Shown: one piece after another, positions 8,985 through 64,000 of the stretch | Layout: each line of letters starts with the position of its first letter | How positions within the stretch are numbered: the stretch's first letter is position 1 | Assembly: GCA_017482385.1 (NCBI GenBank) | Contig: JAFUNI010000023.1 | Coordinates: 186,001-250,000, forward strand | Source of the DNA: Oscillospiraceae bacterium | Lineage (GTDB): Bacteria; Bacillota; Clostridia; Oscillospirales; Oscillospiraceae | DNA length: 64,000 nucleotides | Direction: 5' to 3' | Program-made: the position numbers and the translations under genes | The notes under the pieces: model-generated | Databases searched by the model: none | The model's input: the letters and a program-made list of their open reading frames with translations, nothing else | Told to the model about the DNA's origin: nothing

Positions 8985-8997
8985 TTGTTTCACCTCC

Positions 8998-9106
8998 GAA
9001 ACTAAAAAAGTGTCTTCCTGCCAGAAGACAGAAAGACACGCAGAATACTTTTCAAGCGCACCTCGGCAGGATTTATTGCTTACGCAACCTGCTGTCTTTG
9101 GCAACA
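8998..9106 (-). promoter_or_regulatory. L10 leader (ribosomal protein L10 autoregulatory RNA) with attenuator
   Basis: The minus-strand RNA contains AGACAGCAGG and its partner CCTGCCGAGGT, separated by TGCGTAAGCA. This is the L10(L12)4-binding fold known from Firmicutes rplJ leaders. Further down, GTGTCTT (9039-9033) pairs with AAGACAC (9016-9010), followed by six Ts (9009-9004). That is an intrinsic terminator just before the rplJ SD. Binding of excess L10 is expected to favour this terminator. Confidence 0.85.
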
Positions 9107-9111
9107 GATGA

Positions 9112-9140
9112 ATATTAACATAATATATTAAGAATGTCAA
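9112..9140 (-). promoter_or_regulatory. Sigma-A promoter for rplJ-rplL
   Basis: TTGACA (9140-9135) and TAATAT (9117-9112) are separated by 17 nt on the minus strand. The -35 begins immediately after the racemase stop. This gives rplJ-rplL a promoter separate from the rplKA operon. Confidence 0.85.
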
Positions 9141-17901: not shown

Positions 17902-17942
17902 ACCAAAAAGAACACCACCTATTAGGTGGTGTTCTTTTTGGT
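17902..17942 (-). terminator. Hairpin terminator overlapping the tRNA CCA end
   Basis: An 18-bp stem (AAAGAACACCACC and its complement, extended by ACCA/TGGT) begins in the encoded CCA of tRNA-Ala. It has loop ATTA and internal T5. It would end the tRNA transcript. Confidence 0.65.
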
Positions 17943-18014
17943 GGACTCGAGGAGATTCGAACTCCCGACCCCCACAATGCGAATGTGGTGCGCTCCCAGC
18001 TGCGCTACGAGCCC
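17939..18014 (-). tRNA. tRNA-Ala (anticodon CGC)
   Basis: The minus strand folds as a complete cloverleaf. The acceptor GGGCTCG/CGAGTCC contains the G3-U70 pair that identifies alanine tRNA. The D-stem is GCGC/GCGC, the anticodon stem CCACA/TGTGG has loop TTCGCAT (anticodon CGC), and the T-arm is GGGAG TTCGAAT CTCCT. Discriminator A and CCA are encoded. It is followed by the repeat units, which duplicate its 3' end. Confidence 0.92.
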
Positions 18015-52748: not shown

Positions 52749-53621
52749 ATGTTGGATTTAATCAAAGCCTATGAAAATTACCTAAGCAAGGTAAAGCAGG
52801 CCTCTGCCAACACCATTAGTTCCTATATGCGTGATATTCGCCAATTTGCCGAATGGCTGGGAACAGAGGTTTCAGAAGCTACCCAACTGAATATTAGCGA
52901 TTACCTGCAGCATTTGGAGCAGGATGGAAGATCTGCAGCGACTATTTCCAGGACACTGGCCAGCTTAAAGAATTTCTTTGCATATTTAGTGTCTTCCGGC
53001 TTTTGCGAAAAGACCCCTGTTACAGATATTCACATCGATCGCGGAGAGAAAAAGCTCCCGCAAATTTTGACCGGTCGTGAGATTGAACTGCTGCTTTCTC
53101 AGCCACTTTGTGTGGATGCTAAAGGTTTCCGTGACAAGGCAATGCTGGAGGTTATGTATGCAACGGGTATTCGTGTTACCGAACTGATCGATTTGGATAT
53201 CGATGATGTAAACCTTGAGATGGGCGTTGTTAAGTGTACCGCCGCAAAGAAAACACGAATGATTCCTTTGTATCCAGCAGCCCTCAGAGCATTGACCATC
53301 TACATAAGAGATATTCGGGAATCTATGCTCGCTACATCTGATGAAACAGCTCTATTTGTAAATGTGAACGGTTCCCGTATGAGCCGACAGGGCTTCTGGA
53401 AAATCTTGAAGCATTATCAAACTGCTGCTCATATTGAGAAAGAAATTACCCCGCATACACTTCGTCACAGCTTTGCGGTTCATCTTTTGGAGAATGGCGC
53501 AGACTTGAACTCCTTGCAGGAGTTGATGGGCCACTGCGATATTTCTTCAACGCAGATGTACACCCAACTCATTAATCAAAAATTAAATAAAGTCTATAAA
53601 AAATGCCATCCAAAGGCTTAA
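52749..53621 (+). CDS. xerD: Tyrosine recombinase XerD
   Basis: The 290-aa product has an N-terminal SAM-like domain (LIKAYENYLSKVKQASANTISSYMRDIRQFAEWL). The catalytic domain has Arg142 (YATGIRVTEL), Lys167/168, His236 and Arg239 (PHTLRHSFAVHLLENGADL), His262 (LMGHCDISSTQMYT) and Tyr271. It resolves chromosome dimers at dif with XerC or alone. It sits only 2.7 kb from the prophage, which has no recombinase of its own. Confidence 0.92.
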   Translation: MLDLIKAYENYLSKVKQASANTISSYMRDIRQFAEWLGTEVSEATQLNISDYLQHLEQDGRSAATISRTLASLKNFFAYLVSSGFCEKTPVTDIHIDRGEKKLPQILTGREIELLLSQPLCVDAKGFRDKAMLEVMYATGIRVTELIDLDIDDVNLEMGVVKCTAAKKTRMIPLYPAALRALTIYIRDIRESMLATSDETALFVNVNGSRMSRQGFWKILKHYQTAAHIEKEITPHTLRHSFAVHLLENGADLNSLQELMGHCDISSTQMYTQLINQKLNKVYKKCHPKA

Positions 53622-54835: not shown

Positions 54836-56122
54836 TTATTGGTCTTTCTTTGCAGCGACATCTCTTGCGCTGACACGCTCGTGTTCCTTGATGTCACCAG
54901 CTTTTGTGAGCGCAATTTTGGTCAAGTACGGACCAACGATCTCATAAATAAGAACTGCAAATAAGGTTATATTTCTGACAATAGCCCCGTTAGCACCCAG
55001 TTCAGCGGCCTTAATGGCCATGCCCAACGCGACACCGGCTTGGGGGAGAAGGGTAATTCCCAAATATTTTACGATTTGCGGATCACATTTTACAAGGCGG
55101 GAGCTGAATCCAGCTCCAATGTATTTACCAAGAGATCTGGAAGCAATATAAACGATACCAATAATCACAACAGCGAGATCTGCAAAAACTGACAGTTCCA
55201 ATTCAGCGCCACTAATCACGAAAAACAGGATTAAAATCGGTGCTGTCCAACGGTCAGCGCGCTCCATCAGCTCTTCGGAGAAATCACAAATATTGCAGAA
55301 TACTGTTCCCAGCATCATACAGGCCAGCAGGGAAGAGAAGCCAATATGAATATCACCAAATTGAAATTTCAGACTGGAAAGGCCGACAGTAAGCATTACA
55401 AACGTTACCGAGACCGCCATACGCTTGGATCTGGAGTGAAAATACCTTTCGCACCAGGTAAATAGCAATCCCATAATAAAGCCCAGGAGAAGGGATAACA
55501 CAACCTCCAAGAGGGGTTCTAAAATAATTGAACCCAACCCAACAGCCGCTTGGCTCATTGACTTAGCAACGCCAAAGGAAATGGCAAAAACCACCAAACC
55601 AATAGCATCATCCAATGCAACAACAGGGAGGAGGATGTCAGTTAAGGGGCCTTTTGCTTTGTATTGCCGGATAACCATCAATGTTGCAGCGGGTGCTGTA
55701 GCAGCAGCAACGGCGCCCAAGGTGATAGCGGCAGATAGCGGGAGCTCGTCAGGCATTGCAAAATGCAGACAAATGAGTGCAATATCTACAAGAATTGTTG
55801 TAAAAACTGCCTGTAAAATACCGATTACCGTTGCTTGCTTACCGATTTTCTTAAGGGCGGACAAGCGAAACTCACTGCCCATAGAAAAAGCAATAAAGCC
55901 AAGCGCCAGATCAGAAATAATTCCAAAACCTGCAATTTGACTGTGTGTGATACCCAGGCCCGGAATATTGATGGCACCCAGGATGTAAGGGCCTATGAGC
56001 ACGCCGGCAACCAAGTAGGCAGTGATTGCAGGAAGTCGAACCAGCTTTGCCAATCGCGACAAAAGGAGACCCGAGAGGAGTGCAACAGAAAGACTGATCA
56101 AGATCGTTGCGGTGGATGACAT
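54836..56122 (-). CDS. Cation:proton antiporter (CPA2 family)
   Basis: The 428-aa product has about 12 helices. LPAITAYLVAGVLIGPYILG, GFGIISDLALGFIAFSMGSEFRL, GAVAAATAPAATLMVIRQ and VVALDDAIGLVVFAISFGVA (the conserved Asp-Asp) identify a KefB/NapA-type Na+/H+ or K+/H+ exchanger. There is no C-terminal RCK/TrkA domain, only a short charged tail. The start at 56122 (MSSTATILISL) is chosen because the upstream extension is not hydrophobic and lacks an SD. Confidence 0.88.
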   Translation of the reverse strand: MSSTATILISLSVALLSGLLLSRLAKLVRLPAITAYLVAGVLIGPYILGAINIPGLGITHSQIAGFGIISDLALGFIAFSMGSEFRLSALKKIGKQATVIGILQAVFTTILVDIALICLHFAMPDELPLSAAITLGAVAAATAPAATLMVIRQYKAKGPLTDILLPVVALDDAIGLVVFAISFGVAKSMSQAAVGLGSIILEPLLEVVLSLLLGFIMGLLFTWCERYFHSRSKRMAVSVTFVMLTVGLSSLKFQFGDIHIGFSSLLACMMLGTVFCNICDFSEELMERADRWTAPILILFFVISGAELELSVFADLAVVIIGIVYIASRSLGKYIGAGFSSRLVKCDPQIVKYLGITLLPQAGVALGMAIKAAELGANGAIVRNITLFAVLIYEIVGPYLTKIALTKAGDIKEHERVSARDVAAKKDQ

Positions 56123-56180
56123 TGAGAAAGACCTTCTTTCGATTTGGGTTCCGTATAGGAGCTCGTATTGTATTGTAGGC

Positions 56181-56222
56181 AAATGCCTTAGGCATTCTAA
56201 CACAGACATTTAGAAAAATCAA
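56181..56222 (-). promoter_or_regulatory. Antiporter promoter with palindromic operator candidate
   Basis: TTGATT (56222-56217), 17 nt, extended -10 TGT-TAGAAT (56199-56194). The palindrome AATGCCTTAGGCATT (56182-56196) overlaps the -10 and the predicted start, a good place for a repressor. Confidence 0.72.
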
Positions 56223-56295: not shown

Positions 56296-56310
56296 CAACG
56301 CAACAAAATA
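56296..56310. repeat. Left terminal direct repeat of prophage
   Basis: CAACGCAACAAAATA, identical to 63976-63990. It is followed by an inverted repeat, CAACAAAA (56302-56309) and TTTTGTTG (56318-56325), around an 8-nt centre. This resembles a recombinase core site. Confidence 0.6.
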
Positions 56311-56324
56311 GCACTTTTTTGTTG

Positions 56325-56351
56325 AATAAATCACCCAAAAGGTGGTTTATT
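56325..56351. terminator. Hairpin after the rep gene
   Basis: AATAAATCACC (56325-56335) pairs with GGTGGTTTATT (56341-56351, one G-U), loop CAAAA. It lies just beyond the rep stop at the end of the prophage. T-rich sequence follows on the plus strand, so it may terminate either strand. Confidence 0.55.
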
Positions 56352-56362
56352 TTTACTTTTTT

Positions 56363-57310
56363 TTAACCATAAAAAGCATCCATGACAGTCTGATAATATT
56401 CATCAGAGCAGGGATCTTCTTCGGGTATTTGATCTGCAGCATAATACTGATTGTAGAAAGATTCAATATCCATTGGCTGCCGGAGCTCCTCTTGCTCTTC
56501 GATTATATCACGAAGCGGATCGTCACCAGGCTCACGCTGGAGCTGAACAAAGCCGGAGCTGCAGAAAGTATAATGATGCTGCAACAGGGAATCAAGCAAA
56601 CCATTGCGTCCATACACATCACCATACAGAGTAGATCTATTCAATCCCTGGGAACAGTAATAAAGCTTGAGGCCAACGCGCTGGGCATCACCCATAAACG
56701 ATTTTGTTATGTACTTTGTTGTATAGTGAGCGCAAGCTATATGATCACGAATTTCACCGAAAGAGCAAAAACCAAACCGCTTTTGATACTTAGGCAAATT
56801 ATAATAGCCTTTTTCAACGAGCTTATAGGGGATATCCGCACCGCTGTCCCAAAGCTCCTTAAACGGCACCAGCAGAGGATCGACAACATCGGTAAAGAAT
56901 CCGTGCAAATGCCAGGAACCGTCACCGTGCTGCTCCGGTACAAGCAGATAATCAATTTTCTTGCCGAGTTTTTCGGATTGATACTTTAACCATTCCTTAA
57001 AACGCTTATAGAATCCATCGAGATTCTTTCTATCAAAATTGTTTTGAGCAATCGTGAAAGTACAAAACCACTTCCATTCGTTACATAACGCAAGCTCTAA
57101 ACAGACCCGGCGAGCGCGGGACAGTGCCGCAGGTAGCTTGTCTTCATTTTTGAATCCATCAGCTACCGTGCGCACCGGAGGGCCAAAGCGAGGCGCTGTC
57201 GATGCAAAGCGCACGATCTTGTAATAATCGTGCCGGTACCGATAAACATTGTAATCAGGACCACAAAGCTCTGGACGGAGCTCTGACATGGCTTTCAAAT
57301 ACGCAGACAT
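56363..57310 (-). CDS. HUH-type rolling-circle replication initiator (phage Rep)
   Basis: The 315-aa product has motif I WKWFCTFTIAQNNFD and motif II EQHGDGSWHLHGFF with the metal-binding His-Leu-His at 134-136. Motif III is HYTTKYITKSF with candidate nucleophiles Tyr196 and Tyr200. It would nick the replicative form and start plus-strand synthesis. The ATG at 57310 has GGGGG 5 nt upstream, better than the TTG four codons earlier. The acidic C-terminal tail (EEQEELRQ, EEDPCSDEYY) is unusual. It is last in the early operon. Confidence 0.85.
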   Translation of the reverse strand: MSAYLKAMSELRPELCGPDYNVYRYRHDYYKIVRFASTAPRFGPPVRTVADGFKNEDKLPAALSRARRVCLELALCNEWKWFCTFTIAQNNFDRKNLDGFYKRFKEWLKYQSEKLGKKIDYLLVPEQHGDGSWHLHGFFTDVVDPLLVPFKELWDSGADIPYKLVEKGYYNLPKYQKRFGFCSFGEIRDHIACAHYTTKYITKSFMGDAQRVGLKLYYCSQGLNRSTLYGDVYGRNGLLDSLLQHHYTFCSSGFVQLQREPGDDPLRDIIEEQEELRQPMDIESFYNQYYAADQIPEEDPCSDEYYQTVMDAFYG

Positions 57311-57342
57311 ATTTTCCCCCAAATTCGTTAACGGGTCAAGTG

Positions 57343-57388
57343 CCTCACAGGAGACGGCAAGTCTCCAAAAAAACGAGGTTATTAACCT
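57343..57388. other. Candidate replication origin hairpin upstream of rep
   Basis: GGAGAC (57350-57355) and GTCTCC (57361-57366) form a stem with a 5-nt loop. It is extended outside by CCTC (57343-57346) and GAGG (57375-57378), with the A7 run in between. Next to it lies the palindrome AGGTTATTAACCT (57376-57388), close to the repressor operators. The position, directly before a HUH Rep gene, fits a double-strand origin, but no nick site is proven. Confidence 0.35.
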
Positions 57389-57436
57389 AAATTAAGAACA
57401 GAAAAGGGGTACATCTCACGACCAGCCCTTAAATGC

Positions 57437-57625
57437 CTAACGCTTGTTGCGAATGTTGCCGATTGTCTCTATCAGCTCATAGATTGTCCGGTGGAGGCCG
57501 TCCAGCTTGCTTTCAAGCCGGGCGACCTCAGAGCGGATATTTTCATCACGGTCTTCCAGACGTTTCACATCAGCTGAGGAGACAACCTCAACGACGATGC
57601 GGATTGGAAGATCTCCGTTGTTCAT
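57437..57625 (-). CDS. Small coiled-coil phage protein
   Basis: The 62-aa product has VKRLEDRDENIRSEVARLESKLDGLHRTIYELIETIGNIRNKR, a clear heptad pattern, so it probably multimerises. GGAGGATCATCCC precedes the ATG. It overlaps the upstream gene by 38 nt in another frame. Unrecognised; it lies between the membrane protein gene and rep. Confidence 0.7.
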   Translation of the reverse strand: MNNGDLPIRIVVEVVSSADVKRLEDRDENIRSEVARLESKLDGLHRTIYELIETIGNIRNKR

Positions 57626-57752
57626 TGGGATGATCCTCCAAGAAGCTTACTGCAGCATCGGACACATGACGGAACGTGCGCCGGATCTGCCAGAGCTGAA
57701 ACTGCTGCAGGATAATGCAGGCAACACAGATAATGATAAATACAAGTAACAT
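57588..57752 (-). CDS. Small membrane phage protein, 54 aa
   Basis: It starts MLLVFIIICVACIILQQFQLW, one membrane helix, followed by a basic/acidic tail (QIRRTFRHVSDAAVSFLEDHPNEQRR). The start follows the previous stop by 1 nt and the 3' end overlaps the coiled-coil gene, so coupling is likely. The size is like pIX/pVII or a small regulator. Confidence 0.6.
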   Translation of the reverse strand: MLLVFIIICVACIILQQFQLWQIRRTFRHVSDAAVSFLEDHPNEQRRSSNPHRR

Positions 57753-57753
57753 A

Positions 57754-57996
57754 TCAGGCCACCACAATGATCCGGTTGACGATGTTACGGTTACGATCGT
57801 CAGTAATGATGATGACCTGCTGATCCAGCTGAGGCAGATACTTTACGTGCTCGGGGTTGAACCACACACGGCCGCAGACAACACCTTCACCGTCTGCATT
57901 AGGCTGCAGCGCTTGCTGGATGTAAAGGCGACATCCTTCTGTACCCTTTTCTGAGAGAGTTTTCTCCCAACCAACGACTTTCCAGGGATATTCCAT
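57754..57996 (-). CDS. Candidate ssDNA-binding protein (pV analogue)
   Basis: The 80-aa product, MEYPWKVVGWEKTLSEKGTEGCRLYIQQAL, continues with GEGVVCGRVWFNPEHVKYLPQLDQQVIIITDDRNRNIVNRIIVV. It is beta-rich with aromatic residues (Trp, Phe, Tyr) spaced as in small OB-fold ssDNA-binding proteins of filamentous phages. The position between early genes and rep also fits. The assignment is by size, composition and place only. AAGGAAGG lies upstream. Confidence 0.5.
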   Translation of the reverse strand: MEYPWKVVGWEKTLSEKGTEGCRLYIQQALQPNADGEGVVCGRVWFNPEHVKYLPQLDQQVIIITDDRNRNIVNRIIVVA

Positions 57997-58020
57997 AATT
58001 ACCAAATTCCTTCCTTGAGA

Positions 58021-58413
58021 TTATTTATTTGCAGGGAGTGGTACTCCCAGGCATAACGATAACTTAGCCACATCAACAGGCTGCAGCGGACAGAGGTTCG
58101 GACCTTCCCGTCTAAAGAAGATAGCCGGGCCGACAATATCATCACCAAATGCATAACCGCCATAAAGCCGGCTTACGAGCTCGTTGTGCTCCTGAGCCGG
58201 TTCTTTGATCTTACCGGACTCATCGATGAGGATCACGACGCCAGGGATCTGCAGCGACACTTGCTCAACGCAATCACAACCAATGATCCGATAGATCTGA
58301 TCCAGCTCATAAGCATAATCACCTTCATAGATATCATCATATCGCCGGTTATAGTCCAGCTCGACCCATTCGAGCTTACCGGAGGGATAGATTACCAAAT
58401 GTTCTACTTTCAT
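58021..58413 (-). CDS. DUF3846-like phage protein
   Basis: The 130-aa product has YELDQIYRIIGCDCVEQVSLQIPGVVILIDESGKIKEPAQEHNELVSRLYGG, a pattern like DUF3846 proteins found on phages and plasmids of Firmicutes and Actinobacteria. Function unknown. It lies in the early operon, 24 nt before the ssDNA-binding candidate. Confidence 0.65.
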   Translation of the reverse strand: MKVEHLVIYPSGKLEWVELDYNRRYDDIYEGDYAYELDQIYRIIGCDCVEQVSLQIPGVVILIDESGKIKEPAQEHNELVSRLYGGYAFGDDIVGPAIFFRREGPNLCPLQPVDVAKLSLCLGVPLPANK

Positions 58414-58422
58414 AAATCTACC

Positions 58423-58626
58423 TCACTCATACAGCTCGATCAGCTCGGTGTTGTTATACGGAGTCAGGAGCCGGACAACCACAGAACCGTCAGCGCGGGT
58501 GAATTGATCCAGGATCTTGAAGTCAGACCACTTGGATTGATTGTGATTGATATACACATCAAGAGCGTACTGGGAAATAAATTCAATGTCACGGACAATG
58601 CCGGCAGCTAAAAGCTTTTTACTCAT
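58423..58626 (-). CDS. Small phage protein, unknown
   Basis: The 67-aa product, MSKKLLAAGIVRDIEFISQYALDVYINHNQSKW, ends RLLTPYNNTELIELYE. There are no membrane segments; it is predicted to be a mixed alpha/beta domain. The ATG at 58626 overlaps the upstream stop by 8 nt, with GGAGG 9 nt away. Unrecognised. Confidence 0.65.
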   Translation of the reverse strand: MSKKLLAAGIVRDIEFISQYALDVYINHNQSKWSDFKILDQFTRADGSVVVRLLTPYNNTELIELYE

Positions 58627-59023
58627 TGCCGGGCACCTCCATGAGCTCACAGATCATATACTTCCGATCAAAGTGACCACAATTGAAGTTTAAGCAGTCA
58701 ATAGCAGGACAGTACTTGGGTTTCTTAGCACGGAACAAACCAACGATATAAACCGCAAGAAATACCCAAAACAAAGCAGCAGCAGCCATAGAAAATGACA
58801 TAGCCACAATAACAAGATACAGAGGATCAGCATTTACTTGATCTATAAGATCTTGAAATGACAAAAGATTTAATTCACAAAAATCAGCAATGCAAAGGGC
58901 AAAATACGAAAGAGCCAAAAAGGAAAACAAAGCACACACAAGATACCGATGCTTAAAGAAAAACCTTTTTAGCTTAAAAATTTTCAGTCTAAACTTCAAA
59001 CGACGCTCAGTAGAAACAACCAT
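58619..59023 (-). CDS. Two-helix membrane phage protein with Cys-rich tail
   Basis: The 134-aa product has a very basic N-terminus (RRLKFRLKIFKLKRFFFKHR) and helices YLVCALFSFLALSYFALCI and YLVIVAMSFSMAAAALFWVFLAVYIVGLF. The C-terminal tail carries five Cys (KYCPAIDCLNFNCGHFDRKYMICEL) that could bind zinc. It is first in the early operon behind the repressed promoter. I do not recognise it. Superinfection exclusion or assembly are possible roles. Confidence 0.65.
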   Translation of the reverse strand: MVVSTERRLKFRLKIFKLKRFFFKHRYLVCALFSFLALSYFALCIADFCELNLLSFQDLIDQVNADPLYLVIVAMSFSMAAAALFWVFLAVYIVGLFRAKKPKYCPAIDCLNFNCGHFDRKYMICELMEVPGNE

Positions 59024-59058
59024 ATAAATCAACTCTCCTTGATTATTTGTAGTGCAAA

Positions 59059-59158
59059 AGGTTTAACCTATTGCCTAAATAGAAAATATCAAATTTTTGT
59101 AAATATGTCAAGCAAAAGGTTTAACCTTTTTACATATTAGAGGTTAAACGTGTAAAAA
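59059..59158. promoter_or_regulatory. Divergent promoter region with three AGGTT-n-AACCT operators
   Basis: Palindromes AGGTTTAACCT lie at 59059-59069 and 59117-59127, with a one-mismatch copy at 59141-59151. The first two share the 16-nt GCAAAAGGTTTAACCT. The early promoter on the minus strand (TTGACA 59111-59106, 17 nt, TATTTT 59088-59083) lies between operators 1 and 2. A weaker plus-strand promoter (TTTACA 59129-59134, TAAAAA 59153-59158) has operator 3 in its spacer. This is the layout of a phage immunity switch. Confidence 0.7.
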
Positions 59159-59178
59159 TAACAAAGAGGTGAGGATTT

Positions 59179-59421
59179 ATGCGAAGAAAAATGACATCCG
59201 AAGAAAAGCGCAGCATTATCATAGGCATAAAGGTAAAACCTGAAACAAGATATAAGATAGAATGGATCGCAAACAGAGAAGCAACAAAATTAAGCACATA
59301 TTTAGATAATTGGCTTAAAGATCACATAGAAACATACTTCAAATACAACCATATTGAATGGGACAAATTGACAGATGAAGAGAGAGAAATTCAAAACACT
59401 AAAAAGAAAGGAGGATTATAA
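59179..59421 (+). CDS. Ribbon-helix-helix type repressor candidate
   Basis: The 80-aa basic protein has RSIIIGIKVKPETRYKIEWIANREATKLSTYLDNWLKDHIETYF. A short beta strand, then two helices with a turn, is the CopG/Arc pattern. It is divergent from the phage early operon, with operators in between, so it is the likely immunity repressor. GAGGTGAGG lies before the ATG. Confidence 0.68.
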   Translation: MRRKMTSEEKRSIIIGIKVKPETRYKIEWIANREATKLSTYLDNWLKDHIETYFKYNHIEWDKLTDEEREIQNTKKKGGL

Positions 59422-59562
59422 ATGGAAAAATTTCTAAAGCTATTTGATGAAATATTAGAAATTTTAGCTCATGCCGAAGATAATAAACAAATTACACCCG
59501 AGCAAAGAGAATTCTTAGAAGCTAATATTTATGAAGCCAAAGAAGATATTGAAAAAGAATAA
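59422..59562 (+). CDS. Small acidic phage protein, 46 aa
   Basis: MEKFLKLFDEILEILAHAEDNKQITPEQREFLEANIYEAKEDIEKE. It is acidic and helical, and starts directly after the repressor stop with GGAGG 8 nt upstream. It may be an anti-repressor or partner of the RHH protein. Too small to classify. Confidence 0.65.
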   Translation: MEKFLKLFDEILEILAHAEDNKQITPEQREFLEANIYEAKEDIEKE

Positions 59563-59563
59563 T

Positions 59564-59606
59564 AAAAAAGGATGGTGCGCAGTCAAGCTGCGCAGCCATC
59601 CTTTTT
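59564..59606. terminator. Bidirectional terminator inside prophage
   Basis: The arms AAAAAAGGATGG and CCATCCTTTTTT frame an inner GCGCAG/CTGCGC stem with loop TCAAG. It separates the plus-strand repressor pair from the end of the minus-strand late operon. Confidence 0.9.
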
Positions 59607-59668
59607 TCTTTCTGCAGAACAAATTGAACGTCGACGTCCAATCTCCCCAGGAGCAATTGAACGACGTG

Positions 59669-59914
59669 CTACAAATATTCCTGCAGGAACTTTTGTATGG
59701 CGCCATGCAATTCTTTCTTTGTGCGATAAGAATACGGGCCGATTATTATTTTCTTGGCATAGAAAAAGCCATGGAGGTCGTACCGGTGATTATGATGTTT
59801 GGTTATATCCAGGATCACAACACCTTCTCGATCAATACGGGTATATCCTTCGAGGTTACGCAAGGAATAGGAATAATAAAGACCGTCATGCGGAATAGTG
59901 AAATACCAATACAT
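59669..59914 (-). CDS. Small phage protein after Zot gene
   Basis: The 81-aa product, MYWYFTIPHDGLYYSYSLRNLEGYTRIDREG, continues RYDLHGFFYAKKIIIGPYSYRTKKELHGAIQKFLQEYL. It is Tyr-rich and basic. It starts 9 nt after the Zot stop without a strong SD. A 108-codon frame on the opposite strand is thought to be its shadow. Unrecognised. Confidence 0.55.
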   Translation of the reverse strand: MYWYFTIPHDGLYYSYSLRNLEGYTRIDREGVVILDITKHHNHRYDLHGFFYAKKIIIGPYSYRTKKELHGAIQKFLQEYL

Positions 59915-59923
59915 AAAATCACA

Positions 59924-60649
59924 TCACTTTCTTTGGGGTTTCCGAGATACCGGGTCAGATCCCGGTATCCGCTCCCGCAATCTGCGGATTGCGCTTTTTA
60001 TTCGGTCTACAACAGGAAGGGTAGGGGAGCTGCTGGAGGAATAGCGGGGGAAGTCCTTAACCGGAAGATCGTCACACTCCCAGGAATCGAAGAACCGGTA
60101 ATAGAACGGCCGGAAGGTGAGCATAAACTTCTTCCTGAAGGGGTAGCCCAGCTGCAGCGGCCAGATCAGAAGCCAAAGCATTGAGGGCATACTGTAACCG
60201 TCAATGATCTGATGGGTGTTCTTATCGATGGTAACTCTCTTGAATACCTTTCTGCAGAGGGTGAAAGGACCGATACGGTACATGTACCACAGCTCATTGG
60301 CCAGGCGTCTGATTGTGACGTCCATATCTTCCCAGGACTGAGAGAACACATCTACATCACAGGAGTAGTGCCGGTGCTTTTTGAACCAGGCGATCGTGGA
60401 CTTAGGGAGCGTTTTATAAGCACGGCTATTAAACTCAATGCCGGCTTCATCCAGGGCAATGTAGGAGAATTTCTGGAACGTCCAGTCACCGAGCTTATCA
60501 AAATCACAGCTATAAGCGCCAGGAACAAGATTTTTGAAATTGATGTATGCTGCCTTGTACCGTTTCTTATTTTTCAAAGCCTTCTTGGCAAGCTTGCAGC
60601 ATAAGGTAGATTTACCGACACCGGGCGAACCGAAGAACACGCGGATCAT
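59924..60649 (-). CDS. Zot-like/pI phage assembly ATPase
   Basis: The 241-aa product starts MIRVFFGSPGVGKSTLCC (Walker A at 7-15). Walker B is YIALDEAG (about 63-70), a sensor-like VDVFSQSWEDMD and RLANELWYMYR follow, then a hydrophobic stretch MLWLLIWPLQLGY and a basic C-terminus. This is the inovirus morphogenesis ATPase that extrudes phage through the membrane. The start at 60649 overlaps the previous stop (ATGA). Confidence 0.88.
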   Translation of the reverse strand: MIRVFFGSPGVGKSTLCCKLAKKALKNKKRYKAAYINFKNLVPGAYSCDFDKLGDWTFQKFSYIALDEAGIEFNSRAYKTLPKSTIAWFKKHRHYSCDVDVFSQSWEDMDVTIRRLANELWYMYRIGPFTLCRKVFKRVTIDKNTHQIIDGYSMPSMLWLLIWPLQLGYPFRKKFMLTFRPFYYRFFDSWECDDLPVKDFPRYSSSSSPTLPVVDRIKSAIRRLRERIPGSDPVSRKPQRK

Positions 60650-60816
60650 CTGCTCACCAACTTTCCGAGAAAACGGAACACAGAGGCAACCACGATACAG
60701 AGGATCACTGCAGCAACGAAGTACTCGAGCATTGCAGCATAATCCCAACTACCGTCCGGGAGCTGCAGCTCCGGAGCGCCTAAAATCTCACGCAGAGATT
60801 GAATCACAGTTTGCAT
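60646..60816 (-). CDS. Small phage membrane protein, 56 aa
   Basis: It starts MQTVIQSLREILGAPELQLPDGSWDYAAMLEYF, followed by one helix (VAAVILCIVVASVF) and basic RFLGKLVSR. The amphipathic N-terminus plus helix plus basic end is the minor or major coat protein layout. It overlaps zot by 4 nt. It may correspond to a minor coat (pVI-like) protein. Confidence 0.7.
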   Translation of the reverse strand: MQTVIQSLREILGAPELQLPDGSWDYAAMLEYFVAAVILCIVVASVFRFLGKLVSR

Positions 60817-60820
60817 ATTT

Positions 60821-60892
60821 TTACTCCTTTACGAATAATCCAATGATGAGCACGAGCAGGATCGCCAACAACGTAACTGTATTAAAATCCAT
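60821..60892 (-). CDS. Tiny phage membrane protein, 23 aa
   Basis: MDFNTVTLLAILLVLIIGLFVKE is a single helix with a charged end. GGAGG 5 nt upstream and packing between coupled genes support translation. It is comparable in size to pVII/pIX of filamentous phages (about 30 aa). Confidence 0.6.
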   Translation of the reverse strand: MDFNTVTLLAILLVLIIGLFVKE

Positions 60893-60894
60893 AA

Positions 60895-61002
60895 TTACCT
60901 CCAGAGCAGACGAAAGAGCAGACCAAAAACGAACATCAGAAGAAAGACATAAGTCAAATAGCCTCCGGTAAAAAAAACCGGCAGGGAAGGGAGAATGATC
61001 AT
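60895..61002 (-). CDS. Tiny phage membrane protein, 35 aa
   Basis: MIILPSLPVFFTGGYLTYVFLLMFVFGLLFRLLWR has one helix and basic C-terminal residues, a pVII/pIX-like layout. Its start overlaps the previous stop (ATGA), with AAGGAG upstream. Confidence 0.65.
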   Translation of the reverse strand: MIILPSLPVFFTGGYLTYVFLLMFVFGLLFRLLWR

Positions 61003-61169
61003 GTTTTAGCTCCTTTCCAGAAATAGGACACAGCAAAGCCAATCACGAGGAATGCAAACACCAGGCTAAAATAGGAAACCTTATAGCCGGCAATTTCAAG
61101 AGGACGTTCAGCAAAGAGATCTATGATGTCCTGCCAATAATTTTTCATCAAAACAAAAAATTGAAACAT
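60999..61169 (-). CDS. Small phage membrane protein, 56 aa
   Basis: It starts MFQFFVLMKNYWQDIIDLFAERPLEIAGY, with helix VSYFSLVFAFLVIGFAVSYFW and the end KGAKT. It is an amphipathic region followed by one helix and a basic tail, the coat-protein layout. The stop overlaps the next start. An internal ATG at 61148 is a less likely start. Confidence 0.68.
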   Translation of the reverse strand: MFQFFVLMKNYWQDIIDLFAERPLEIAGYKVSYFSLVFAFLVIGFAVSYFWKGAKT

Positions 61170-61179
61170 AAGAAAGACC

Positions 61180-61380
61180 TCACTTTAAGAGTAAGAATCG
61201 AATGAGATACACAGCAAGAAAAATTACCACCGAAGAAGCCAGGACTGTAGGAAGATAGGCAATGAAAAGGCCAATAAACTCAGTAGAGATATTTACCATG
61301 GAAAGGGCAGTGGCCATTGTATCATAGAAATCCTGGATACCGTCCCAGGTTGATTCGAGAATTTCAACAATCCTATTCAT
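61180..61380 (-). CDS. Small phage membrane protein, 66 aa
   Basis: MNRIVEILESTWDGIQDFYDTMATALSMVNISTEF precedes a long helix (IGLFIAYLPTVLASSVVIFLAVYLIRFLLL) and a terminal Lys. It starts within the stop codon of the pIII-like gene (TAATG). A pVI-like minor coat or scaffold role would suit its place next to the adhesin. Confidence 0.72.
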   Translation of the reverse strand: MNRIVEILESTWDGIQDFYDTMATALSMVNISTEFIGLFIAYLPTVLASSVVIFLAVYLIRFLLLK

Positions 61381-63320
61381 TATGCAGCATTACTCCTTTG
61401 CATACGATATTGGGCACGAACTTGTGCAGCTTCTTCACGCCGACGAGTCCAAAGGTTAAAACTCTGAGCATATAACGTCATGCCCAAGAGCGTAGCGATC
61501 AGACCGACAGAGCAGGAAGTGATGATCAGCTTATAGAAGAAGGAAATGCCGGCAAATTCTTCAAAGATCAGAGCTGCAACACGAAAGCCTTCTAATTCAT
61601 CCTCGAGGAAGGTATAAACATTGCCGATATAATTTTCACCCTGCTGGAAGCCGTTATTGATATAGGGGATCAGAGGGATCATCTGCTTATCAGCTTCATC
61701 CTGGGAATCATCGTCACCGATACCAGGATCAGCAGTAGTCGTGCCGGCAATGGTCTGAACGGCAGTTTTAATATCAGTTAACTGAGTTGTCAAAGATTTA
61801 TCAAGGGAAGAAAACAAATCAGTGATTCGAAGTTTAAGAAAAGAAAATTCATTCGTAAGAGCCGCACGCAAAGCTCCAATAGAAGTATCAAGACCGTACA
61901 AAACCTGATCATTTATTGAATCCAAAGAAGTCTGAACTGACCCAAAAGAAGATAGTATAGACTCTAACGAAGGATAAATAACGTCCCAATTAAACTGATC
62001 TAAATAGATAAGAGGCTCAGACAAGATAGCCTCGGATTCTATAATTTGATCAATAACAGGCTGAAAATCAGCAGTCATATCGACCTCCAAAGATTCTATT
62101 GCCGTATACAGAGAATTTAAGGAATCATTTAGGGTCATCTCGGTAGAAAGAATTTGATCAATCACAGGCTGGAAATCCAAGTCAACATTCACTTCGAGCT
62201 CATCAAGCGCAACCAAGGTATCAGAAAAGCCGGCACTTAATTCATCACGAATGAGCTGATTTTCACCGACAAGATCAGCTAAATAGGAAGATTCCTGGCC
62301 AAGCTTATCACTAATGCTTATAAGCAATTGAGATTGCGTTTCATAAAAATTAGTAAGTGATTGAGAGATCTGATCAGGAAGATCCTGGACTGCAGTTAAA
62401 ATCAAACTGTCATATTGCGTAATCGTTTCCCGGAGACTTACAAAATCGGCAGAGAGATCCGAAAGAGTAATGTTCTGAATAGATGTATTAAGGGTATCCA
62501 GCTTATCCAAAGTTTCATTACCGAAGGAAGCATAAGATGACTTCAGCTGAGTAAGATCAGTATGTAAAGTGGAAGACAATGTATCAATAGAGGTCTCAAG
62601 AGAACCAAGCTTTGAAACAAGAGTATCGCGCGCAATCAAAATCGTAGAGTTAAGAGCGGAAATTTGAGAAGTAAAAGTAGACTCGAGAGAAGCAAAAGCA
62701 TCTTGAATCGCCTCGAGATTTGTTGTACGCAAAAACAATTCAAGGCCATTAAGATCCTTCTTCAGCTGCCAAACAATCTGATTACCAGCAAGGATATTTT
62801 GGTTAACTTCCGTCAAATCGGCAAAACCTTTGAAGTTAAGACGATCAGCTGTGATCTGCTCAGCATCCATCCAAACGGATTCGGGAGGAGCATAAATAAC
62901 AACATCTTCTGTAGGCTCAGACAAAGTAAGACCGGTCTTTGTCTTATAGGCAGCAGCAACAGAAGAAAGAAAAGCCTTAGTAAGCACTACCTGGCCTGCA
63001 GAAAGCTCACCTTCGGCATAGGAGTCATACGTAGCTTTGTGGTAAGCATCACCAGAAAAAAAGGATCCAATCTCAAGCACACCTTGGGCAGTTTGTAATA
63101 ATTCAGCGGAAAAAACCTTATTCCAAACAGAAGCAAGAGCGGAAGCAATAACTTTAGAGCCTTCCTGGATTCCTTCAACGACGATATCACCAATAACGAT
63201 ATATGCTGAGGAATATGCTGGATCCGGAACAACTGCAGCATAAGCACGAACAGGGGAGAGGCAGAAAACGATCAAAGCCAGGCAAAGAAAAAAAGATATA
63301 TAACGATGAATTTTATTCAT
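61380..63320 (-). CDS. pIII-like adsorption / minor coat protein
   Basis: The 646-aa product has a signal peptide (MNKIHRYISFFLCLALIVFCLSPVRAYA), then an N-terminal domain to about residue 190. A long coiled-coil region follows, made of Ser/Leu/Asp-rich heptads with a twice-repeated DFQPVIDQI. A linker (TTTADPGIGDDDSQDEADK) leads to a C-terminal membrane helix (KLIITSCSVGLIATLLGMTLY) with a basic tail. Exported, stalk-like and C-terminally anchored is the inovirus pIII plan. Host receptor unknown. AGGTGG lies 7 nt before the ATG. Confidence 0.8.
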   Translation of the reverse strand: MNKIHRYISFFLCLALIVFCLSPVRAYAAVVPDPAYSSAYIVIGDIVVEGIQEGSKVIASALASVWNKVFSAELLQTAQGVLEIGSFFSGDAYHKATYDSYAEGELSAGQVVLTKAFLSSVAAAYKTKTGLTLSEPTEDVVIYAPPESVWMDAEQITADRLNFKGFADLTEVNQNILAGNQIVWQLKKDLNGLELFLRTTNLEAIQDAFASLESTFTSQISALNSTILIARDTLVSKLGSLETSIDTLSSTLHTDLTQLKSSYASFGNETLDKLDTLNTSIQNITLSDLSADFVSLRETITQYDSLILTAVQDLPDQISQSLTNFYETQSQLLISISDKLGQESSYLADLVGENQLIRDELSAGFSDTLVALDELEVNVDLDFQPVIDQILSTEMTLNDSLNSLYTAIESLEVDMTADFQPVIDQIIESEAILSEPLIYLDQFNWDVIYPSLESILSSFGSVQTSLDSINDQVLYGLDTSIGALRAALTNEFSFLKLRITDLFSSLDKSLTTQLTDIKTAVQTIAGTTTADPGIGDDDSQDEADKQMIPLIPYINNGFQQGENYIGNVYTFLEDELEGFRVAALIFEEFAGISFFYKLIITSCSVGLIATLLGMTLYAQSFNLWTRRREEAAQVRAQYRMQRSNAA

Positions 63321-63333
63321 AGAAACACCACCT

Positions 63334-63365
63334 AAAAAAGCCCTCCAGCAGGGGCGCTGGAGGGC
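63334..63365 (-). terminator. Strong terminator after major coat gene
   Basis: GCCCTCCAGC (63340-63349) pairs with GCTGGAGGGC (63356-63365), 10 bp GC-rich; T6 follows on the minus strand. A terminator directly after the major coat gene is a classic filamentous phage feature that limits expression of downstream genes. Confidence 0.92.
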
Positions 63366-63381
63366 AAAATGGAGCAGGAGA

Positions 63382-63564
63382 TTACAGGCGAATCAGTCTG
63401 CCCAGCAGGCCAACAGCAAAGCCAGCGATAGGCATACCGAAGACCATAATCATAGCCAGAGGATGCTCGATAACAAAATCAAAAACATCGCCCATCCAGG
63501 TAATGCTCTGACCGAAGAAAGTGCCAACAGCATTCAAAGCAGTTTCCATAGCAGTAGCTTCCAT
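63382..63564 (-). CDS. Major coat protein candidate (pVIII-like)
   Basis: The 60-aa product starts MEATAMETALNAVGTFFGQSITWMGDVFDFVIEHP. A hydrophobic segment, LAMIMVFGMPIAGFAVGLLG, and the basic C-terminus RLIRL follow. Acidic amphipathic head, membrane core and basic tail is the coat design that packs around ssDNA. AAGGAG sits 8 nt before the ATG at 63564. It is placed before the strong terminator. Confidence 0.8.
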   Translation of the reverse strand: MEATAMETALNAVGTFFGQSITWMGDVFDFVIEHPLAMIMVFGMPIAGFAVGLLGRLIRL

Positions 63565-63626
63565 AACAGGAACTCCTTTCAAAGAATAATATCATCAGGC
63601 GTGGCCATCGCCGGACAAACAGAAAG

Positions 63627-63693
63627 AGGCGGGGGCAGGACTCGAACCTGCATAACCAGGAGAGTGGTTGTCTTACCATTAAACGACCCCTAA
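63627..63693 (-). other. tRNA-like element with shortened anticodon arm
   Basis: The D-arm (GTTT AATGGTA AGAC) and T-arm (GCAGG TTCGAGT CCTGC) are intact. The 3' acceptor half CCCCGCC and discriminator T follow. The 5' acceptor half is TTAGGGG, so only four pairs form. Only 18 nt lie between the D- and T-stems (22-23 expected), leaving an AACC/GGTT stem with an 8-nt loop. CCA is not encoded. It resembles a degenerate tRNA-Gly or -Glu and is on the same strand as the late operon. Confidence 0.6.
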
Positions 63694-63713
63694 GACAAGA
63701 GGGAGAAAGTAAA

Positions 63714-63956
63714 TCACTTTTTTAGAAACTCACTGAAATGAGCACGAATCATATCAAAAGTTTTTTCTCGATCAATAAAATGAAGACAAGGCTCATCATA
63801 AGAAAATCTCAGCTTACGAAAACGATCATATTCAAAAGCAGAAATATGAAGCATAAGAACAGAAGGGGAGTTGAAACGGCAAAAATGACCATCATGACAA
63901 TGATAGTAAAAAAGACACTTAGAGCAACATCTGCGAAGATAACCGTTTGAAGCCAT
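63714..63956 (-). CDS. Small Cys-rich phage protein
   Basis: The 80-aa product, MASNGYLRRCCSKCLFYYHCHDGHFCRF, has five Cys and two His packed in about 18 residues, which could bind zinc. The C-terminal half is DREKTFDMIRAHFSEFLKK. GGAGG 5 nt upstream fixes the start at 63956. It is first in the late operon as far as the window shows. Unrecognised; a regulator is possible. Confidence 0.65.
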   Translation of the reverse strand: MASNGYLRRCCSKCLFYYHCHDGHFCRFNSPSVLMLHISAFEYDRFRKLRFSYDEPCLHFIDREKTFDMIRAHFSEFLKK

Positions 63957-63975
63957 AACTACCTCCATAAAAAAA

Positions 63976-63990
63976 CAACGCAACAAAATA
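63976..63990. repeat. Right terminal direct repeat of prophage
   Basis: CAACGCAACAAAATA, identical to 56296-56310. CAACAAAA is followed 6 nt later by TTTTGT at the window edge, so the same inverted-repeat core may continue beyond it. Confidence 0.6.
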
Positions 63991-64000
63991 AAAATTTTGT

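Follow-up and report, generated by a model that had tools for sequence, protein, structure and literature searches.

An inovirus prophage with no recognizable recombinase at a palindromic, dif-like site in an Oscillospiraceae genome

CTX phage has no integrase of its own and is integrated at dif by the Xer recombination of its host. A 64,000-nucleotide stretch from an Oscillospiraceae bacterium (GCA_017482385.1, contig JAFUNI010000023.1, positions 186,001 to 250,000; hereafter the window) raises the question of how a filamentous prophage could have entered the chromosome in this family. A sequence-only reading had proposed an apparently complete filamentous-phage prophage at 56296..63990. The element spans 7,680 bp, 56296-63975, and is bordered by a 15-bp direct repeat, CAACGCAACAAAATA, found at 56296 and again at 63976; the repeat spacing of 7,680 makes the earlier coordinates correct to within about 15 bp. 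Its size lies within the inovirus range of ~4-12 kb (PMC10061712). No recombinase family scored above cut-off among 18 scanned open reading frames (ORFs) of the element (Pfam, PHROG). The element is an inovirus (Tubulavirales) prophage, probably complete, and its genes and borders make it likely that it lives as an Xer-exploiting element (IMEX).

The predicted HUH rolling-circle initiator (Rep) matches PF23343 (REP_ORF2-G2P) at 46.4 bits against a cut-off of 27.8, and its HUH histidines and two tyrosines are invariant in an alignment of ten sequences. A better score with unrelated ATPases would have spoken against the Zot/pI assembly ATPase, but Zot-type families are its best matches: PF05707 at 24.1 bits (cut-off 20.3) and PHROG 197 (Zot-like, 4.8e-13), with PHROG 1675 ('protein I of M13') at 7.9e-4. 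The Walker A and B residues are invariant across 12 sequences. Both assignments agree with the sequence-only reading, as do the pIII-like adhesin, 646 aa long and hydrophobic near both termini, and several tiny membrane proteins (o56a, o73, o56b, o66a and o59), each with a single transmembrane (TM) segment. A pVIII-like coat protein with a strong terminator behind it had also been proposed, and here the outcome is divided. The candidate has one TM segment. Twelve other stretches have a Zot relative, and 10 of them, from 9 of 11 genomes, also have a relative of the candidate at 1e-3 or better, L058 and L115 being the exceptions. The terminator behind it, at 63365-63340, has an 11-bp stem with 8 G-C pairs and a T-run and is the best of the region; with 8 sites in the terminator scan against 7.5 expected, it is the only one that stands out. 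However, the protein matched no curated coat family in Pfam or PHROG. Gene layout is as had been described: the genes are on the minus strand except for a short plus-strand pair in their midst, p80 (the repressor candidate) and p46. A secretin had been reported absent, and none appears in the Pfam and PHROG matches of the 18 ORFs. Nor did PADLOC match any defence cargo among seven element proteins.

What the sequence-only reading missed is the identity of the right border, a dif-like site beside an Xer-like recombinase gene. A perfect 30-bp palindrome, AACGCAACAAAAT-AAAA-ATTTTGTTGCGTT, straddles the window edge there, and on the contig beyond the window (C16) the right repeat proves to be half of a 32-bp palindrome, CAACGCAACAAAATAAAAATTTTGTTGCGTTG, with a 4-bp centre. 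The left border repeats one arm of it. The palindrome is host DNA. An empty site in a close relative (L232) has the antiporter gene, dif-like site and recombinase gene with no insert, and its proteins are 95.5% (recombinase), 90.8% (antiporter) and 95.9% (XerD-like) identical to those at the window's locus; a 13-bp arm is common to attL, attR and this empty site. To the right of the palindrome lie a minus-strand gene for a 162-aa hydrophobic protein, the gene for a 334-aa tyrosine recombinase, radA, and a gene for a CwlD-like protein. The last supports, indirectly, the earlier description of the host as spore-forming, although its 189.2 bits fall below the cut-off of 221.55. Integration at a tRNA was rejected: the sole tRNA of the window lies at 17939-18014.

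The same site is occupied in other genomes. Both borders were identified for the window's element and for those of G259 (6,848 bp) and G265 (5,482 bp), which belong to the window's genus, G575 (11,859 bp), and G206 (7,806 bp), from another genus. In all five the good copy of the palindrome is on the recombinase side, with 13 of 13 pairs matched except in G206 (12 of 13). The Zot ORF overlaps attL in G259 and G265. Three elements are incompletely resolved: in G304 one contig has the half-site and another begins with dif, G089 has an attL-like site on its contig C8, dif on C2 and element genes on both, and in G173 the left border is ambiguous. The G575 element (L281) holds relatives of Rep, o83, o130, o75, p80, p46, Zot, o56a, o73, o56b, o66a and the coat candidate in the order of the window, its o83-o130 stretch being longer. 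In G265, Rep belongs to another family (PF02486), and no relative of the window's Rep lies between the G259 borders, so modules have been exchanged. A scatter of these genes with no common boundary in related genomes had been named as grounds for abandoning the prophage; instead, related genomes keep them within shared borders, at one and the same site of the chromosome, and L232 supplies the empty one.

How widespread is the palindrome in the host family? With up to two mismatches allowed, 51 of 250 family genomes, from 26 of 106 genera, contain a single copy; read backward as a control, it was found in 0 of the 250. It is likewise present once each in 37 of 61 genomes of the window's genus. 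Of 20 regions fetched, 17 contain it (L045-L061), and the recombinase is on the same stretch in 16 of these. The recombinase itself is found at 1e-70 in 208 of the 250 family genomes (152 of 161 good genomes), always as a single copy, and all 51 genomes with the palindrome have it (lists compared by eye). One genus member, G195 (98% complete), has neither. Viewed from the recombinase loci examined, a palindrome of the same type lies upstream in all but L028 (204 bp covered) and L125 of G125. Among named genomes, at least 119 stretches have the site; the recombinase follows 20-1005 bp downstream in 106 of the 119 listed and was not found inside the other 13. Seventy-six of those listed are titled Oscillospiraceae; among the rest are Faecousia, Avoscillospira and one Pseudoflavonifractor isolate. 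Three Faecousia records among the matches listed (L158, L171, L187) encode recombinases 75.6-80.2% identical to the window's; identity is 75-84% inside the window's genus, which makes Faecousia a likely genus for the window, but it is also as high as 77% for G062 of another genus. Across the order, 36 of 295 sampled genomes contain the core AACAAAATNAAAATTTTGTT, comprising 23 of 26 from the window's family, 9 of 10 from a family labelled f7, and 4 others, and a recombinase relative is nearby in 26 of 30 such loci fetched.

Some smaller observations concern the site and its flanks. Several loci (Table 1) have a second and weaker dif-like sequence, of the AACAAAAC-centre type, at a distance of ~60-140 bp from the site or attL. 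On the recombinase side of the palindrome there is a TATAAT-like box, often TGTGCTATAAT, at L004 1009-1045 and many other loci; it is perhaps the recombinase promoter, left intact by insertion on the other side. In L141, whose recombinase is 99.1% identical to the window's, unrelated sequence lies left of the dif-like site. This contig and L285 (1-156 in each) start 126 bases short of the site, suggestive of a branch point in the assembly, which could reflect a mixture of occupied and empty sites.

We read the palindrome as the dif of what is probably a single-recombinase Xer system, in a host that is probably of the Oscillospiraceae. The position of the site is consistent with this. In the two genomes that form one contig with dnaA at base 1, the cumulative GC-skew maximum, examined over 200 kb, is 3.1 kb (G206, 3.22 Mb) and 31 kb (G098, 2.19 Mb) from the site; the other three of five one-contig genomes (G078, G160, G128) do not start at dnaA and were left out. 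In contig C1 of G300, scanned over its first 200 kb, the maximum lies 0.9 kb from the site; in the window's contig it is 10.7 kb away, left of the prophage. The window's site differs in sequence from the canonical Firmicutes dif, and a B. subtilis-type pattern (up to 3 mismatches) was found in 1 of 250 family genomes. Across 21 distinct rows the two arms covary, with a score, which ignores kinship among rows, of 0.223 against 0.048 +/- 0.017 when shuffled and at most 0.035 when slid; the inner arm bases are constant partly because the search patterns demanded them. The recombinase was seen nearby for 19 of the 21 rows, the other two being the G017 and G276 variants. This set leaves out the AATTG- and CACTC-arm variants, which have no adjacent recombinase, and including both gives the same result. 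That the arms covary between genera suggests that one recombinase binds both. With a modest lean, we favour a broader picture: Oscillospiraceae and at least one neighbouring family would use an undescribed single-recombinase Xer system on a palindromic dif with co-evolving arms; a guild of single-stranded DNA (ssDNA) elements would share it, comprising integrase-less inoviruses and small elements of Rep plus mini-recombinase, possibly in tandem (L154); and inoviruses would integrate in one polarity, rebuilding dif on the recombinase side.

Other explanations of the palindrome have to be weighed against a single-recombinase dif. The host may use an ordinary pair, the 334-aa protein being a diverged XerC and the 290-aa XerD-like protein being XerD, with a dif that merely looks palindromic. 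Most bacteria use two recombinases (PMC5357621), the genus conserves both genes, which in many genomes stand within a few kb of each other in the neighbourhood of the site, and the best NCBIfam models are XerC for the 334-aa protein and XerD for the 290-aa protein. We regard a pair as possible but unlikely. The outer arm bases change jointly, which two different proteins would not need, and a gene beside its site is the arrangement of the single-recombinase XerS (PMC5357621). The 334-aa protein scores 236.5 bits against the XerC equivalog model TIGR02224, 99 bits under the cut-off of 335.15; it does not reach that of the XerS equivalog NF003462 either (151.5 bits, cut-off 267), and its matches in PDB include XerD (8.6e-35) and XerH (7.6e-15). 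The palindrome might alternatively be a regulatory or terminator element that phages merely target because it is conserved, and not dif at all. It directly precedes the recombinase gene, many loci have a TATAAT-like box after it, and its centre is reversed in five genomes. Yet it sits at the GC-skew flip, the canonical pattern is nearly missing from the family, its distance from the gene varies as given above, and the phage borders split it as they would a crossover site, and we find the regulatory explanation improbable.

The element, for its part, might be a defective remnant, no longer able to produce phage. Neither a virion nor a circular form was seen, several genes have no family, and the Zot match in the G575 relative contains three stops (2 TGA, 1 TAA). 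In the window's element, by contrast, the Rep, Zot, pIII-like, coat and regulator ORFs are all open and both borders are present, and Zot relatives occur in 64 phage records, with 11 of the 12 fetched being circular; we give a remnant only a small chance. Several findings nevertheless weigh against an inovirus that exploits a single-recombinase dif. Recombination was not observed either, so that for recombination and virion production alike we infer from genes and borders. In G300, G258, G049, G098 and G173 the centre of the palindrome has the opposite orientation with respect to the gene, odd for a directional dif; the XerD-like gene is also conserved near the site across the genus; the count of one canonical pattern in 250 genomes comes without a positive control; and G125 has the recombinase gene, with no palindrome found. 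Zot is present in 10 of the 250 family genomes, four times beside the recombinase (the window's own, G206, G089, G173). It is clearly away from it in G078 and G160, on other contigs in G180 and G116, and in G027 and G047 there is no recombinase gene; these last four cannot be judged. The half-site was found in 0 of 12 fetched free inovirus records (of the 64 phage records with a Zot match, or found by Rep) and in 0 of the 20 IMG/VR contigs with distant Rep or Zot relatives.

In the genus sample, Zot occurs in 3 of 61 genomes, all at the site, and a Rep relative in 7 of 61. The half-site was found in one of eight further prophage stretches (L043 of G304). Among free inoviruses of the gut (records named bajarodino, Dulem and porcine Inovirus), identity reaches 44.7% for Zot and 37.6% for Rep. 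Single-sequence Zot and Rep scans of IMG/VR gave no match; alignment queries found 5 Rep and at least 15 Zot distant relatives there. Inoviruses are not the only elements at the site. In 7 of the 119 listed stretches and in G259, small elements with an HUH Rep and a tyrosine recombinase of 165-184 aa lie beside the dif-like site. In L154 such a unit is in tandem, with a spacing of 3,417 bp and 99.9% identity over 3,171 bp, and the site-like sequences are also 3,417 bp apart. The G259 inovirus element (L045 8594-15442), whose Zot is 72% identical to the window's, adjoins such an element and might depend on its neighbour's Rep.

From these parts a life cycle can be proposed. After infection, a double-stranded phage circle carrying the left arm of dif would be recombined into dif by host Xer. 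A crossover at the border of left arm and centre would rebuild a perfect dif on the recombinase side, and dimer resolution and the recombinase gene would thus stay intact. As a repressor, p80 may shut off the early promoter of the minus strand, with two copies of AGGTTTAACCT as its operators. These copies stand 51 and 109 bp upstream of p80, one on either side of the promoter candidate, which has 10 of 12 consensus bases and is one of three such in a scan that overall is not above chance (19 against 15.4 expected). In L059 (G264), AGGTTAAACCT occurs twice, 51 and 108 bp upstream of the p80 relative; in L281 a p80 relative is present and neither AGGTTTAACCT nor AGGTTAAACCT was found. The arrangement points to a repressor-operator switch, as we infer from the paired sites. 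Release from p80 would let Rep start rolling-circle replication. The ssDNA may then receive a coat of o83, and extrusion of the filament across the single membrane, with no secretin, would fall to Zot and the small membrane proteins.

Clostridial inoviruses are already known, and the more interesting part is the integration site, a putative dif of a type that we have not found described. The earlier remark on the rarity of cultured examples was fair, but inoviruses of gut Enterocloster and Hungatella are in print, and so is the secretion of inoviruses by Clostridia in culture and in mice (PMC10061712). Those prophages resemble the window's, by description and not by sequence, in their gut Clostridia hosts and direct repeats (6.5-8.5 kb, one 16 kb); virions were detected for Enterocloster. 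Neither 'dif site' nor 'Xer' appears as a term in the main text of that paper. Pig viromes yielded 344 inovirus contigs (PMC9723715), a human-gut Zot clade has predicted Clostridiales hosts (PMC8530359), and the Firmicutes hosts predicted for such free gut inoviruses are like the window's. XacF1-type inoviruses of Proteobacteria also have no integrase and integrate at dif by host Xer (PMC5666396), but their hosts have XerC/XerD and a canonical dif, whereas here the palindrome lies beside one Xer-like gene. Single-recombinase systems in print are XerS, XerH (with difH), XerA and XerL (PMC5357621, PMC9765430). XerS/difSL likewise links one recombinase gene to an atypical dif (PMC5357621). In Legionellales, too, a mobile element at the site, LME-1, revealed the single-recombinase dif of XerL near the terminus; phylum and element differ, and recombination was shown experimentally there (PMC9765430). 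Two surveys, one of dif (PMC3025954) and one of tyrosine recombinases (PMC8138268), make no mention of a site of the window's type in their accessible parts, and no description of it or of its use by inoviruses was found in the open-licence literature. If our reading is true, it explains the persistence of integrase-less inoviruses in a common gut family, and names the likely dif and recombinase of bacteria in which no canonical pattern was found. It would also offer a 30-bp site and a single protein, testable in E. coli or yeast, and free inovirus genomes with a half-site could be assigned to hosts.

Table 1. Features of the prophage, its borders and related loci. Positions are those of the window unless an L number, our handle for other sequence stretches, is given.
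Feature	Position	Strand	Remarks
Host XerD-like recombinase (290 aa), outside element	52749..53621	+	327.9 bits, XerD cut-off 329.6
Host cation:proton antiporter gene, left of attL	54836..56209	-	adjoins empty site in L232
attL	56296..56327		dif-like left arm intact, right half degenerate (6/13 palindromic pairs)
Rep, HUH rolling-circle initiator	56363..57322	-	Pfam PF23343 REP_ORF2-G2P
o62, small protein	57437..57625	-	no family above cut-off; relatives in L045, L059
o59, single-TM protein	57588..57767	-	
o83, adjoins o59 and Rep	57754..58005	-	ssDNA-binding candidate by position alone
o130, DUF3846 protein	58021..58413	-	PF12957 30.0 bits, cut-off 27.5
o75	58423..58650	-	relatives in L059, L281
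o137, two-TM protein	58619..59032	-	
Operator candidate AGGTTTAACCT	59059..59069		spacing shared with p80 relative of L059
Early promoter candidate, TTGACA-17-TATTTT with TG	59083..59111	-	between both operator candidates
Operator candidate AGGTTTAACCT	59117..59127		
p80, repressor candidate	59179..59421	+	ribbon-helix-helix by sequence reading; no family above cut-off
p46, acidic small protein after p80	59422..59562	+	relative in L281
o81	59669..59914	-	relative in L281 adjoins dif
Zot/pI assembly ATPase	59924..60655	-	PF05707 above cut-off; PHROG 197
o56a, single TM	60646..60816	-	minor coat/assembly candidate
o73, single TM	60821..61042	-	minor coat/assembly candidate
o56b, single TM	60999..61169	-	minor coat/assembly candidate
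o66a, single TM	61180..61380	-	minor coat/assembly candidate
pIII-like 646-aa protein	61380..63320	-	hydrophobic segments at residues 8-26, 590-608
Strong terminator after coat gene	63340..63365	-	
pVIII-like coat candidate, single TM	63382..63582	-	60 aa from inner ATG
o90, Cys/His-rich small protein adjoining attR	63714..63986	-	
attR = host dif-like palindrome	63976..64000		runs 7 bases past window end (L004:977-1008)
334-aa Xer-like recombinase gene	L004:1592-2596		
Rep + mini-recombinase elements	L154 1-6585; L133, L140, L173, L207, L233, L238; L045 6726-8449		
Weaker dif-like sequence	L045 8510, L173 1947, L238 5951, L140 1791, L133 7806, L154 3086 + 6503, L060 3813		

Elsewhere in the window, a ribosomal protein L10 leader (RF00557) lies at 8995-9119 on the minus strand.

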